Part shown: positions 48,431 through 53,663 of the stretch, in pieces
Layout: each line of letters starts with the position of its first letter
Position numbering within the stretch: the stretch's first letter is position 1
Assembly: GCA_024280335.1 (NCBI GenBank)
Contig: JAJRQI010000061.1
Coordinates: 62,001-126,000, forward strand
Direction: 5' to 3'
From: Deltaproteobacteria bacterium
GTDB taxonomy: Bacteria; Desulfobacterota; Desulfuromonadia; Desulfuromonadales; Geopsychrobacteraceae
DNA: 64,000 bases
Made by a program: the position numbers and the translations under genes
The notes under the pieces: generated by a model
Databases searched by the model: none
What the model was told of the DNA's origin: nothing
The model's input: only the letters and a program-made list of their open reading frames with translations

Positions 48431-48990
48431 CCCTTTACAAAAGATTAATTTGTGCCCGGCTCGGCGGATTCAGGTGCGGTAAGCCGGACGATCCTAAATT
48501 CAGTTTCAGCCGTGTCTATAAAAAAGAAGTGTACAGTAACTTAAAACGGCGTTTTTGACAGCCATTACAAGACAAAAAACCGGCTGAATTGTCAAGGGAA
48601 ACTTTATTTAGGATAAAAAATTACAGGTGTAGTTTAAATCTGTTTTGAATCTGGTAGAAGGATATGGATGCGATGTGGGTGGAGGCTCGGTAAATCGGTC
48701 GCGCATTTTAGTTAGAATGAGCTTCATCTGGCAATGCACTGAATTTACAAAGAAAAGATGAATTGTATGGGAAATGTTTCTGCTGTTCTCTGGTTCTGGG
48801 AGAGTCGATTTCGGTAATTGATCAGACCATTTGACCAATAGAGGGCTTGCCGCAACAGTGAAGATAGAAAAAATAGCAAAAATTACATTATCACTTAAGA
48901 TTGATTGAGGGCTATATCGCTCTCCTTAGACATCGTTTTACCCGCAGGTTTTTTGCTTGCTGGAAATTGTCTGTTTAGGCTTGGGTGAGA
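48431..48990. other. 560-bp intergenic region upstream of the carboxylase operon
   Basis: It is AT-rich compared with its surroundings and should hold the carboxylase promoter: on the minus strand a TTGACA lies near 48595. A 76-codon frame at 48608-48838 has no coding character. I see no riboswitch or tRNA. Confidence 0.5.
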
Positions 48991-48993
48991 CAT

Positions 48994-49034
48994 CGACAGC
49001 GAGGGTGGCGATTTTGTGGCCACCCTCGCTGTCG
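48994..49034. terminator. Terminator after the XRE-cupin gene
   Basis: CGACAGCGAGGGTGGC pairs exactly with GCCACCCTCGCTGTCG across a 9-base loop (16-bp stem). No long T-run follows, so it may partly act as an mRNA end-protecting hairpin. Confidence 0.75.
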
Positions 49035-49042
49035 GGTAGAAT

Positions 49043-49627
49043 TTAAAATATCAGCATCTCTCTCTCTGCATAAATCACAGCAAGGATCGTCGCGGGATCC
49101 TCTCCATGGCATGAAACAACATGGGGTAACTTGGAATCATAATAGATAGAATCTCCAGGGGTGAGGATGTCGGTATGTTCAGAAAGCTTCACCTCAACCT
49201 GTCCTTCCAGTACGAAAATAATTTCTTCTCCGACATGCTGGTTGGGTTCGTAAGGGTCTTCAGAAGGAGTCAGGGTCACAAGAAGCGGCTCCATGTGTCG
49301 GTTTTGTTTCTGGTGCCCCAGAGACTCATAACTGTAACGGCCCGACTTACCGGTAGAACTGAAGCGGGACACGGCTTTTCTGGTATCACTTCTGACGATA
49401 CAAAACGGCGAATCTGCGCTGTCGCCGAAAATTTCTCCCACCGTAACCTCGAAGGTATTTGCCAGGCTGATGATATTTCCCAATGGCGGAGAAATCTGTT
49501 GGTCTTCAATCCCGGAAATAATTTCTGTGGATATCCCGGATCCCTTGGAGACATCCTCTATCGACAACCCCTGTTCGATCCTCAAACCCTTGATTTTTTC
49601 TCCAATAGTACTGTTTTGCTCCGGCAT
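49043..49627 (-). CDS. XRE-family regulator with C-terminal cupin sensor
   Basis: A 194-residue protein: an XRE helix-turn-helix at about 9-65 (IGEKIKGLRIEQGLSIEDVS, then LGNIISLANTFEVTVGEIF) and a cupin domain at about 115-190 (NQHVGEEIIFVLEGQVEV, LTPGDSIYYDSKLPH). This class often controls carbon or fatty acid metabolism by binding a small ligand in the cupin. The upstream position relative to the carboxylase genes suggests those as targets, as inference. Confidence 0.9.
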   Translation of the reverse strand: MPEQNSTIGEKIKGLRIEQGLSIEDVSKGSGISTEIISGIEDQQISPPLGNIISLANTFEVTVGEIFGDSADSPFCIVRSDTRKAVSRFSSTGKSGRYSYESLGHQKQNRHMEPLLVTLTPSEDPYEPNQHVGEEIIFVLEGQVEVKLSEHTDILTPGDSIYYDSKLPHVVSCHGEDPATILAVIYAEREMLIF

Positions 49628-49775
49628 CGTTACTCTCCTTTTAGGAACTTACATGATAGAACATAGCTTTTTTGAGAATTTAATCACCAGCTGTTTTAAG
49701 TGGATACACCTGAAGAATATAATAAATTTCCCTTGAAATAGGCACGTAAAAATTCTAACCGCTGTTTTTATTTGC

Positions 49776-50847
49776 GGGGTCACATCTCAACTATCAACTA
49801 TTTTCCATTTGATCTTCTCGATCATCCCACGCAACGTCTTATCCTTTTCTGCCTTCATCGCACAGCGCTTGCCACACAGGGAAATGGCAGAACCTGAAAT
49901 GCCGCCGAAGTAACGACCAAGCTCGACGCAGGGGAGAGCACAAAATTGCAGTGACAGGTAAATGGCAATCTCGCGGGGCCGATTTCGTTTTTTGCCCTTG
50001 GTAATAATAGCTTCAGGACTGCTGCCCGTTGCCGCCGCAACCGTTGCGACAATCTTTTCCGGTGATATCAGCGGCCGCAGCTTTTTCAGCTGCGGGATCT
50101 CCTTCGCGTCTCTGCCGTCCGACAAAAAGGTCTCCTGAACCCAAAGGACAAAAGATGTGTCTCCCAGAATACAGCCGGCAACACTCTGGTTGTTCGGGTT
50201 TTTCAGGCTGTCCACAGCTGTTTCTTCGACAAAGGCGCGATAGCTCCTGAGTGCCGATTTTGTTTGACTGGAGAAATGAGCCAGCAACGACGTCTCCAGC
50301 CACTCCGGCGTTTCTTTCTCCCCGATAAAAAACGCATAACTGCTCCAGGGATAATCCTGCGGCGCCTCAACTATTTTTGCTTTGACCGGATTCAGGTGGA
50401 TATATCGGGACAGTTGCGTCAGATATTCATCCGCATCCACCAGAACAGCCTTGAACCGTCCCTGAAATAGATGGCCCTGCCGCTGGCGTTTTCGGTTGAA
50501 GTAAGTTGCATAACTGACATTAAGCCACTGGATCGCAGCGCTGAGATTAGCCTCGGGGGTTTCGATCAGCAGGTGATAATGATTCGACATCAGGCAATAG
50601 CTGTGGATGACAATGGCAAACCGTTCTGTTGCAGTTGCTAGATATTCGAGGAATTTCTTGCAGTCGCGGTTTGATTTGAAGATCGGTTCACCAGCGTTGC
50701 CGCGATTGATGACATGGTAGTAAGCGCCGGGGTACTCGATGCGAAGGGGTCTGGCCATAATGTCCTCCGGGAGCAGGAGTGGTGGATGGGGACAATATGG
50801 CCTGTTGGGGGGATGTTGTCAATAGTTGATAGTTGAGATGTGACCCC
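49776..50847 (-). mobile_element. REP-type transposon with perfect 27-bp inverted repeats
   Basis: The left end (49776-49802, starting GGGGTCACATCTCAAC) and right end (50821-50847) are exact reverse complements over 27 bp and enclose one REP-associated tyrosine transposase gene. The left repeat includes the last codons of the transposase, so gene and end are fused. Two further degenerate copies of the end lie at 50940-50966 and 51042-51068. Y1 transposases normally recognise hairpins rather than long terminal repeats, which makes this arrangement notable. Confidence 0.75.
49787..50758 (-). CDS. REP-associated tyrosine transposase (Y1/IS200-like, RAYT)
   Basis: A 323-residue protein. The N-terminal Y1 domain has MARPLRIEYPGAYYHVINRG, the HUH-type NHYHLLIETP, FQGRFKAVLVD and YIHLNPVKAKIVEAPQDYPWSSY with the catalytic Tyr. 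The C-terminal part has a DnaA-like helix-turn-helix (REIAIYLSLQFCALPCVELGRYFG). RAYT proteins cut and mobilise REP palindromes. It is intact and could be active; it lies wholly inside the 27-bp repeats. Confidence 0.92.
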   Translation of the reverse strand: MARPLRIEYPGAYYHVINRGNAGEPIFKSNRDCKKFLEYLATATERFAIVIHSYCLMSNHYHLLIETPEANLSAAIQWLNVSYATYFNRKRQRQGHLFQGRFKAVLVDADEYLTQLSRYIHLNPVKAKIVEAPQDYPWSSYAFFIGEKETPEWLETSLLAHFSSQTKSALRSYRAFVEETAVDSLKNPNNQSVAGCILGDTSFVLWVQETFLSDGRDAKEIPQLKKLRPLISPEKIVATVAAATGSSPEAIITKGKKRNRPREIAIYLSLQFCALPCVELGRYFGGISGSAISLCGKRCAMKAEKDKTLRGMIEKIKWKIVDS

Positions 50848-50858
50848 GTTTGTTGCTC

Positions 50859-50929
50859 AATACCGCCTTGCGTTTGGCCAAATTTTTCGGCACCACTCCC
50901 GACTTCTGGCTGGGTCTGCAGAGCGAATA
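50859..50929 (+). pseudogene. 71-bp exact duplicate of the higA 3' region
   Basis: This stretch is identical to 51600-51670 inside higA. Read in the higA frame it gives the antitoxin end TALRLAKFFGTTPDFWLGLQ and then stops at TAG. The flanks differ. It sits directly outside the right end of the transposon, so it looks like debris of a second antitoxin gene or of an insertion-linked duplication. Confidence 0.85.
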
Positions 50930-50939
50930 GGAGCACAGA

Positions 50940-51118
50940 GGGGTCACATCTCGACTATTAACTATTAAGGCGTAACTCCCTAAAATCACTGTCTCAAAAA
51001 TCGTGACTTAAATCTCACTTCTCCATTTTGGGCACAATTTTAGGGTCACATCTCAATTATCAACTATTTGTCCATGAATTTCCCCAATCATCCCACGCAA
51101 CGCCTTGACCTTTCCTGT
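50940..51118 (-). repeat. Two more transposon-end copies and a relic of a second transposase 3' end
   Basis: Copy three is at 50940-50966 (two mismatches) and copy four at 51042-51068. After copy four, 51069-51118 still resembles the codons of the transposase C-terminus (TCATCCCACGCAACGCCTTG against TCATCCCACGCAACGTCTTA), so a decayed second element once lay here. No ORF remains. Confidence 0.75.
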
Positions 51119-51153
51119 TGACGTATTCCCAAAAACAGTATACATCATCAGGG

Positions 51154-51432
51154 ATGATCAAGAGTTTCCGTTGCAAAGACACTGAATGTCTGTTCGATGA
51201 CAATCTGGTACGTAACTTCAGAGCCATCGAACGGGTCGCACGCCGGAAGTTGTTGATGTTGCATCGTGCTAAAGAATTAACCGATTTGAGAGTGCCGCCG
51301 GGCAATCGCCTGGAGGCACTCAAGGGTGATCGTTCTGGCCAGCATAGTATTCGTATCAACGGACAGTGGCGTGTCTGTTTTTGCTGGAATGATGGTGATG
51401 TCACAGAGGTTGAAATTGTGGACTACCACTAA
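51154..51432 (+). CDS. higB: HigB-type RelE-superfamily toxin
   Basis: A 92-residue mRNA interferase candidate starting at ATG 51154. It has KSFRCKDTECLF, ARRKLLMLHRAKELTDLRVPPGNRLEAL, and IRINGQWRVCFCWNDG, the HigB pattern with the basic residues used on the ribosome. It is 11 bp ahead of higA. A possible promoter is TTGACG at 51115 with TATACA at 51136, partly inside the transposon relic, so the insertion may have supplied or replaced promoter sequence. Confidence 0.92.
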   Translation: MIKSFRCKDTECLFDDNLVRNFRAIERVARRKLLMLHRAKELTDLRVPPGNRLEALKGDRSGQHSIRINGQWRVCFCWNDGDVTEVEIVDYH

Positions 51433-51443
51433 GGAGCATCGTT

Positions 51444-51743
51444 ATGAGTAGTAAATTGGAACTGATTCCGCCGGGAGAAATTCTGTTTGAGGATTTTATG
51501 AAGCCGTTGGCTGTCAGTCAAAATAGGCTTTCGCGGGATATTAACGTTCCGGTCGGTCGTATCAACGATATTGTTCATGGTCGTCGTTCGATAACAGCCA
51601 ATACCGCCTTGCGTTTGGCCAAATTTTTCGGCACCACTCCCGACTTCTGGCTGGGTCTGCAGAGCGAATATGATCTGCGGCGCGCAAAAAGAGATTTTTG
51701 GCCCAAAGAACAGGGCAAAATCCGTTCATTTCCCGCGGCCTGA
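51444..51743 (+). CDS. higA: HigA-type antitoxin
   Basis: A 99-residue XRE-like antitoxin: PPGEILFEDFMKPLAVSQNRLSRDI, then VPVGRINDIVHGRRSI (recognition helix) and TALRLAKFFGTTPDFWLGLQ. It binds HigB and represses the operon. It has GGAG before its ATG. The 3' third is duplicated at 50859-50929. Confidence 0.94.
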   Translation: MSSKLELIPPGEILFEDFMKPLAVSQNRLSRDINVPVGRINDIVHGRRSITANTALRLAKFFGTTPDFWLGLQSEYDLRRAKRDFWPKEQGKIRSFPAA

Positions 51744-51800
51744 AAAAATCTAGAGTGTCAGAGAGGGGCTGTAGCGGTAGTGCTTGTCTGTCGTAGCGAT

Positions 51801-53663
51801 TTACCGGTTCTTTCTTGATCGGTGCCGCAGACGGCTGGACTTTGCGGCCTCGGTTCGATGCTCATTTTTCGTTGCGCGAGCTGGTCGCTTCTCCAGCAGT
51901 TCAGCAGCAATTCCTTGCCGTCCGCACAAGCGCAAGGCTTCCAGAACATCCGCTTTCGATTCCGATTTATGATAGAGCAGCAGCGCCTTCTGCAGGCGCT
52001 TCTCTTTGCTGGCCCGCGGCACGTGCAATGGTTCGCCGGTAAAGGGATCCTTGCCGGTGTGGTAGATGCAGGTCGACAGGCTGCCTGGAGTGGGGGTGAA
52101 ATCCTGTACCTGCTCGACTTGCAGTTGGTGGTGTTTTAAGTAGAGAGCGACGTCGACCATGTCGGACAGTTCGCAGCCGGGATGGCCGCTGATCAGGTAG
52201 GGAACGATTGTCTGTCGCAGCCCCAACTGCCGGCTGCGCTGGCGGAATTTATCGAGAAAATCGCTGAACAGTTTTGCGCCCGGTTTACGCATTACATCGG
52301 TGACCCGGTCACTGGTTGACTCCGGAGCGACTTTCAATAATCCGCCGACGTGGTGTTGCAGCAGGTCATCGAAATACTGTTGCTGAAACTGCAGCAGGTC
52401 GTAACGGATGCCGGAGGCGACAAAGACATTTTTAACTCTATCCCGCTTACGAATTTTACCGAGCAGGCGCACGGCACGTTTGTCGTCGCTGCGCAGGTTT
52501 TTGCAGGGACGTGGGTAGAGACAGCTGTCGCGGCGGCAACTCTTTTCTGCCGCCGGGTTGCTGCAACCGAGCCCGTACATATTGGCGGTCGGCCCGCCGA
52601 CATCGCTTAAGGTGCCGTGAAAACTATTTTCTGCGCTTAACCGATCGATCTCCTGCAGGATCGACTGTTCCGAGCGGGACTGGATGGTCTTGCCCTGATG
52701 GTGGGTGATGGCGCAGAAGGCGCAGCCGCCGAAACAGCCGCGATGGCTGGTGATCGAGTTGCGGATCTGTTCGAAGGCCGGGATTGTTTCTGTATAACTT
52801 GGGTGCGGTTGCCGGGTGAAGGGGAGGGCGTAGATCCGATCCAGTTCCGCCTCGCTCAGTGGCAGTGACGGTGGATTGACGACTAAGGTCCGGTTGCCGT
52901 AAGCCTGAATCAATGGTTTGCCAGACCAGGGGTTCTGCTGTTCACTGGCCAGTTTGAACATCCGGTTGTAGGCATCCAGGTTTTTACTGACTTCGGCAAA
53001 ACTCGGCAGTTCGACGGCATTTTTCGGCTCAATATTGTCGAGCACCGCAGTGCCGCGAAGATCCTTGATTGCGCTGATCTCTTCCCCGGCAGCCAGCCGT
53101 CGGGCCAATTCCAGAATTGTATGTTCCGCCATCCCGTAGAGCAGCAGATCGGCTTTGCTGTCGACCAGCACCGAGCGGCGTACCTTGTCGCTCCAGTAAT
53201 CGTAGTGGGCCAGTCTGCGCAGGCTGGCTTCAATTCCGCCGATCACTGTCGGTAAGCCTTTGAAGGCTCCTTTAACTGCTGCGGTATAGGCGATCACTGC
53301 CCGGTTCGGGCGTTTTCCGGCAACATTCCCCGGCGTATAGGCATCATCTCTGCGGATTTTTTTTGCAGCTGTGTAGTGGTTGACCATCGAGTCCATCGCC
53401 CCGGCCTAGATTGCTGCAAACAGGCGCGGTCGGCCCATCACCTTGAACGCTTGCGGATTTTTCCAGTCGGGTTGGGCGAGGATGCCGACCCGGTAGCCTG
53501 CTGCTACAAGCAGGCGCGCGAGCAGCGAGCTGCCGAAGGCGGGGTGGTCGATGTAGGCATCGCCGCTGATGAACAGGACGTCCAGCTCTTCCCAGCCCCG
53601 GGTTTTCATCTCCTGTCGGTTGGTGGGGAGGCTGTTGTTCTGTACTGAAGATTCAGCGGCCAC
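51801..53663 (-). pseudogene. YgiQ-family radical SAM protein interrupted by one in-frame TAG
   Basis: One continuous frame with a single TAG at 53408-53406. Before it come about 85 residues ending GRPRLFAAI; after it AGAMDSMVNHYTAAKKIRRDDAYTPGNVAGKRP continues the same family. Relatives have Ser or Thr at the stop position (VSAG/VTAG), so TCG to TAG is the likely change. The rest is complete: CFGGCAFCAITHHQG (4Fe-4S/SAM), KVAPESTSDRV and a C-terminal basic tail. The start is probably GTG 53663, overlapping the DUF6485 gene. An internal restart at ATG 53396 would lack the N-terminal domain. YgiQ's function is unknown. Confidence 0.88.

Follow-up and report, generated by a model that had tools for sequence, protein, structure and literature searches.

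A Y1 transposase gene between matched terminal inverted repeats in a Geopsychrobacteraceae genome fits the TIRYT/TIRtron class and probably moves with both of its ends

A 64,000-nucleotide stretch of contig JAJRQI010000061.1 from a bacterium of the Geopsychrobacteraceae (here called the window) carries a single-tyrosine (Y1) transposase gene enclosed by perfect inverted repeats, which we regard with good confidence as a TIRtron: a minimal mobile element in which a single Y1/HUH transposase gene lies between two terminal inverted repeats of ~27 bp. We document the architecture of this locus, its conservation among homologues, the predicted fold of the protein, the edges of similarity in two comparisons, the presence and absence of one homologue, and the solo copies of the repeat. 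Each end of the window element has the GGGGTCAC box on its outer side, followed by a short linker and a tandem pair of 7-bp units. In the proposed mechanism the transposase would recognise both ends, its tyrosine would cut one strand, and gene and ends would move as a unit. Solo copies would be ends that were mobilised singly or left behind, much as REPs are thought to be moved by RAYTs. We suggest more tentatively that the ends may be recognised by base sequence (box and 7-bp units) and not as a REP hairpin, perhaps aided by a DnaA-type domain on duplex DNA. The likelihoods attached below to rival readings are not mutually exclusive.

TIRYT/TIRtron is a named but little-studied class, of which the window element is a further member. 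According to the main text of Di Nocera et al. (2013; PMC3733652), a TIRYT is a Y1 transposase gene with long flanking inverted repeats, many of them with GGGGWSAS; some repeats overlap the 3′ end of the gene (3'ov), and such repeats form moderately abundant families in some genomes. Quentin et al. (2018; PMC6006769) describe in their main text a TnpA-REP subclass 2.1 with a Bac_DnaA_C/HTH C-terminal domain and no REP found nearby, which ‘probably corresponds’ to TIRYT and for which further analyses are called for; these authors did not settle if the target is read by the C-terminal domain. The window element fits the class in its Y1/HUH domain, its DnaA-type C-terminal domain and its GGGGWSAS ends, and judged by domains and ends it probably belongs to subclass 2.1. 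The protein is a Y1/HUH transposase of the TnpA-REP type, and its C-terminal DnaA_C/HTH domain is recognisable at a Pfam score just below the cut-off. The long terminal inverted repeats are unrelated to GTAG REPs, with no GTAG on either repeat strand, and GGGGWSAS, found in some members of the class and not in all, is present as GGGGTCAC at both ends of the element. GTAG-tagged short palindromes flanking the gene, the mark of a RAYT/REPtron, were not found in the window with one narrow pattern (GTAG-N9-CTAC, 0 matches).

The window element shares gene, inverted repeats and 3′ overlap with the TIRYT/TIRtron of PMC3733652. No mention of the 7-bp units was found in the main text of PMC3733652 or PMC6006769; Figure 9 of the former shows repeat sequences. 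RAYT/REPtron systems (TnpA-REP, 4er8) have the same catalytic fold and likewise show solo repeats elsewhere in the genome, whereas the window element has no GTAG-tagged palindrome and carries an extra DnaA-like domain. IS200/IS605 elements (IS608, ISDra2) have the same Y1/HUH fold, and the main text of PMC6006769 describes their ends as recognised via subterminal hairpins; the ends of the window element are inverted repeats instead. A preliminary description of the locus, made from the letters of the window, had called its form unusual, a view overtaken by the arrangement documented in the main texts of PMC3733652 and PMC6006769 and by its frequency among the homologues sampled below.

A repeat search of the window returned two arms, complementary at 28/28 positions and 1018 nt apart (Table 1), and the 323-aa ORF between them matches Y1_Tnp (PF01797; Pfam, E 4.5e-15). 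The transposase gene between perfect inverted repeats, as first described, is thus borne out; the perfection of the repeats stands and their stated length of 27 bp does not, the true arm being 28 bp with one base more at the outer end. The repeat reads GGGGTCACATC-TCAACTA-TCAACTA-TT. The left repeat, at the 3′ end of the gene, had also been said to run through the transposase stop codon, and TGA (49789-49787) does fall within it. The upstream copy lies 63-90 bp 5′ of the start codon, a possible promoter position, and the 3′ repeat read outward has stops in all three frames; both would suit repeats that serve mainly as operators and terminators, the DnaA-like domain binding the upstream copy for autocontrol and the downstream copy ending transcription or translation. 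We consider this very improbable, as it leaves the solo copies, the matched ends and the similarity ending at the edges unexplained, and the window repeat has no hairpin.

Table 1. Positions of the element, its parts and neighbouring repeat copies in the window
Feature	Position	Strand	Remark
3′ terminal inverted repeat (gene orientation)	49775..49802	+	CGGGGTCACATCTCAACTATCAACTATT
5′ terminal inverted repeat	50821..50848	-	perfect complement of the 3′ end
Y1 transposase gene (TIRYT), 972 bp, 323 aa	49787..50758	-	ORF and Y1_Tnp match
Tandem 7-bp units TCAACTA TCAACTA, 3′ end	49787..49800	+	
Mirror of the TCAACTA tandem units, 5′ end	50823..50836	-	
Catalytic domain, residues 1-190	50189..50758	-	
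DnaA domain IV-like domain, residues 231-323	49790..50068	-	Pfam, profile search, model
75-bp copy of higA interior, 74/75 (98.7%)	50858..50932	+	between element and solo repeat
Solo repeat copy (93%)	50940..50966	+	
Repeat copy fused to transposase relic	51042..51117	+	80-83% identical to 49777-49851

Several pieces lie beyond the 5′ repeat. Within the copy fused to a relic, the repeat proper covers 51042-51068, and the relic consists of the final ~20 codons of another transposase on the minus strand, ending in LRGMIGEIHGQIVDN and a stop. It directly adjoins a higB-higA toxin-antitoxin pair (51118-51743), inside which lies the source of the higA copy (51599-51673), 741 bp from the copy; none of the window's four motif copies lies inside the copied piece. 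A second case of a 3′-end relic was seen in a congener (G001:C270:5135-5359; L038, L111), where the repeat is joined to only 225 bp of transposase 3′ end, 83% identical. The solo repeat and a tail of ~50 bp (50936-51015, 80 bp) recur at 98% in G000:C10:18596-18675, and with repeat and tail shared by two places, some solo copies evidently bring extra sequence along.

In the transposase, the NCBIfam model REP_Tyr_transpos scores 79.3 bits, just below its cut-off of 80, and Bac_DnaA_C matches at E 1.3e-6 with 28.7 bits, below the curated Pfam cut-off of 31.5. The HUH motif is H60-Y61-H62 (50573-50581), and the codon of Y119, the presumed catalytic tyrosine, lies at 50402-50404; H60, H62 and Y119 are invariant in 60/60 aligned sequences. 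A profile of 14 homologues compared with PDB sequences gave 6 matches at E<=0.001, all of them DnaA. In an AlphaFold2 model built from the 60-sequence alignment (mean pLDDT 90.9, pTM 0.69), residues 1-190 fit TnpA-REP 4er8 (Z 16.9, 2.3 A, 157 aligned) and residues 231-322 fit DnaA domain IV 1j1v (Z 17.5, 1.1 A, 92 aligned). Cleavage of the HUH/tyrosine type is likely, as predicted from this fold. In the DnaA-like part, R262 ahead of the AIYL helix is kept in 43/60 sequences. DHTTV, which we take to be the base-reading motif of DnaA, aligns to residues 288-292, the last three of which are mostly S (37/60), A (44/60) and V/I (59/60). These residues would be consistent with a domain in which the DnaA fold is retained but a different sequence is read.

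Homologues were gathered from 60 genomes (same genus, family and order) and from the best 80 of 585 confirmed places in named genomes. A filter for a closed frame, a profile match starting within the first 15 positions and a start codon passed 143, which became 133 distinct genes after duplicates and genes too near a contig end had been dropped; sources include Desulfuromusa, Geotalea, Brocadia, Nitrospirota and Omnitrophota. When 130 bp upstream were compared with 60 bp downstream, an ungapped inverted match with a score of at least 13 was found in 100/133 sampled homologues versus 16/394 mismatched pairs, 1/133 with the downstream part read backwards (uncomplemented) and 3/133 as direct repeats. 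The limit of 13 was picked after the table had been seen; limits of 10 and 20 give 105/133 versus 69/394 and 58/133 versus 1/394, respectively. The non-zero scores of mismatched pairs stem in part from the GGGTCA box, which different elements have in common, and GGG[AT][CG]A is present in 76/100 left and 78/100 right repeats. The arrangement of the locus is therefore not special to the window.

No inverted pair was detected at a score of at least 13 in 33/133 sampled homologues. Among these 33 are eight 313-aa homologues of one kind (L095-L099 and L101-L103), which would serve naturally as a group for comparison. In L201 (Phycisphaerales) each gene end is a ~75-bp palindrome of two inverted repeat copies, the two ends being nearly identical, and this is a double-ended, REPIN-like form of the TIRYT system.

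Perfect pairs with letters unlike those of the window were found in L141 (27 bp), L142 (26 bp) and L143 (27 bp); L141 comes from Desulfuromusa sp. BB21 and coincides with G019:C98, from a genome in the family of the window. These bear on the recent insertion that the preliminary description had offered as one of two alternatives: perfect ends persist over long divergence, and recency does not follow from perfection. A reading in which the repeats are perfect only through a very recent insertion or a local inverted duplication would agree with the 28/28 identity and with the disturbed neighbourhood, with its 75-bp higA copy and transposase relic, but each of the diverged relatives L141, L142 and L143 has its own perfect pair, and the right (3′) copy spans the gene end in 89/100 homologues with a pair. 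From these sequence comparisons the reading appears largely refuted, and we give it hardly any credence. Although elements diverge from one another, each keeps its two ends alike, which points to selection or to continual correction.

The inner part of the repeat has a period of seven. Period tests kept 81/99 repeats, 1/100 having no recognisable anchor and others being shorter than 19 nt. In these 81, bases seven apart agree at 370/747 places (0.50) versus 0.28 in shuffled repeats, a z of 13.7 that takes elements as independent; relatedness was handled by thinned sets of 60, 30 and 19 elements, for which z is 11.2, 9.6 and 5.9. Period 8 shows a smaller excess (z 3.2), and no clear excess was seen in the 81 repeats at periods 2-6 or 9-13 (top z 1.1, at 13); for the adjoining 16 nt on the inner side of the repeat, z at period 7 is 1.8 (98 elements). 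A match of at least 5/6 at period 7 is present in only 32/81 repeats, at period 8 in 11/81, and at periods 5, 6, 9 and 10 in 2, 0, 2 and 2 of 81. The units vary by element (TCAACTA, TTGACAA, CTGAAAG, TCATATG, GTCATTA and others), and agreement between the paired copies of a single repeat is 0.49-0.55 versus 0.37-0.40 for copies from different elements, a level reached by 0, 0, 0 and 1 of 1000 permutations (81, 60, 30 and 19 elements).

By itself, the 27-bp window repeat does not fold into a hairpin (dG 0 for both strands), so that REP-style recognition through a hairpin inside the repeat is not supported for the window element. This agrees with the earlier view that the locus is not of the standard REP/RAYT form, and the different mode of recognition proposed with it is plausible. 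Folding of the longer left end is no better than that of shuffles (z 1.23 and 0.47 for the two strands), and that of the longer right end is somewhat better than that of most shuffles (z -2.0 and -1.9). The hairpin test among homologues kept 89/100 repeats, with palindromic-end L201, L186 and repeats shorter than 18 nt out; mean folding z was -0.36 versus -0.04 for the adjacent control, and small stems (dG < -2) were present in 34% of repeats versus 10% of the control, a mild excess at n=89.

Which protein domain varies with the inner repeat was assessed with a Mantel-type test on 79 elements. Inner-repeat similarity correlates with the catalytic, middle and DnaA-like domains at rho 0.36, 0.32 and 0.25, and the partial rho is 0.18, 0.10 and 0.10 (permutation p 0.001, 0.008 and 0.012). 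The idea that the DnaA-like domain is singled out as the reader of the inner repeat was not borne out in these 79 elements, and since the test shows no preference for that domain, the reader role is not claimed for it. A sequence-specific, duplex-binding step via the DnaA-like domain is nevertheless an attractive candidate. We put forward tentatively, and with some doubt, that the ends are read as sequence and not as hairpins: the fixed outer box would be the cut mark, and the element-private 7-bp pair, matched at four places (two per end), would be read on duplex DNA by a re-tooled DnaA-type domain. If true, DnaA-style origin recognition and HUH single-strand transposition would be combined in one hybrid system.

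Copies of the repeat are scattered. With at most 3 mismatches, the motif has 4 matches in the window versus 0 in each of 100 dinucleotide shuffles, the 27-mer has 11 in the whole genome (backward control 0), and a 26-base pattern variant has 12 in the 3.59-Mb genome (reversed control 0). These 12 copies comprise two that flank the gene, two within 220 bp beyond the 5′ repeat and eight on other contigs. The genome holds one close full-length transposase, the other five matches having 28-36% identity. At the same mismatch limit the motif is present in 10/60 genomes searched, own included, and four of the ten (G000, G030, G019 and G012) have it together with a transposase at 61-100% identity; absence of the transposase from the remaining motif-bearing genomes is weak evidence, as these genomes are incomplete or diverged. 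Two inverted repeat copies 4.4 kb apart enclose several ORFs at G000:C42:448-4933 (L106), including small pairs that by eye resemble nucleotidyltransferase/HEPN-type pairs, and the interval is a possible candidate for a composite element.

The preliminary description had held that repeats found without the gene at many places would be independent REP units. Literally such repeats exist (10/12 copies), but pairing with the gene is conserved, and the two descriptions, as scattered units and as element ends, both apply. A REPtron-like reading takes the gene as settled and not moving as a unit, the repeats as singly moved satellites, and the inverted pair as kept beside the gene. The 10/12 copies that do not flank an intact gene and the one close full-length gene would suit it, and the main text of PMC6006769 says that REPtrons do not seem to move as one unit; the inverted pair in 100/133 homologues is compatible with the TIRtron and the REPtron-like reading alike. 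We hold the REPtron-like reading to be unlikely, given that similarity in L046 and L141 ends at both repeat edges with unrelated flanks and that the L046 element is absent between both flanks in four congeners.

These edges come from blastn comparisons with four close homologues. Nucleotide similarity to L046 (80% identity, another genus) spans window positions 50846-49776 and then stops, and similarity to L141 (70% identity over the element, a third genus) spans 50846-49774, in each case stopping no more than two bases from the repeat edge on either side. In L142 similarity starts at 50852, 4 bases past the left edge, and fades inside the gene at 49884; in L075 it starts at 50846 and fades inside the gene at 50126. 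The right edge is thus evident in 2/4 close homologues. Among flanking ORFs of at least 60 aa in seven close homologues and the window, over flanks that are short (about 140 to 2,000 bp), nothing was common except the transposase and overlapping frames, with the exception of L144/L145, where one 61-aa match is mostly an antisense overlap with the gene 3′ end.

The L046 element is absent between both homologous flanks in 4/8 congeners (G024, G032, G060 and G027), in which the flanks are 95-165 bp apart; the remaining four match the L046 site on the right flank only. The 145 bp to the right of the element in G030 have no match in G024, three of the four element-less congeners are also without the next ~700 bp, and the left flank in G030 stops, by eye, inside an arm of a terminator-like hairpin, which is intact in G024. 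With the right side of the L046 site rearranged, this is an absence and no clean empty site. For the window element no empty site was found among 9 congeners (48700-52500 compared). Seven of the nine match part of this interval, mostly right of 51.8 kb and outside the element; the exceptions are a higBA-like match in G004, the 225-bp transposase 3′ end in G001, 110 bp in G005 and short transposase or repeat fragments. Comparison of the L141 neighbourhood with 13 congeners yielded nothing usable, and a search of plasmids returned 24 records, all below 60% identity.

From the edges in L046 and L141 and the absence at the L046 site, the gene and both ends probably move together as a unit. Edges, unrelated flanks and the L046 absence are three lines of sequence evidence for this, and none is final. 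The single close genomic copy speaks against easy movement, unlike that of a busy IS.

The 133-homologue sample supports the proposed link between the DnaA-type subclass 2.1 and inverted repeats, which the main text of PMC6006769 says needs confirmation. Besides this support, the present analysis adds evidence that gene and ends move as a unit, and it offers the 7-bp units as a candidate recognition site. Box and 7-bp units together offer a concrete candidate site for a DnaA-like domain that has so far been unexplained, and make its role directly testable.
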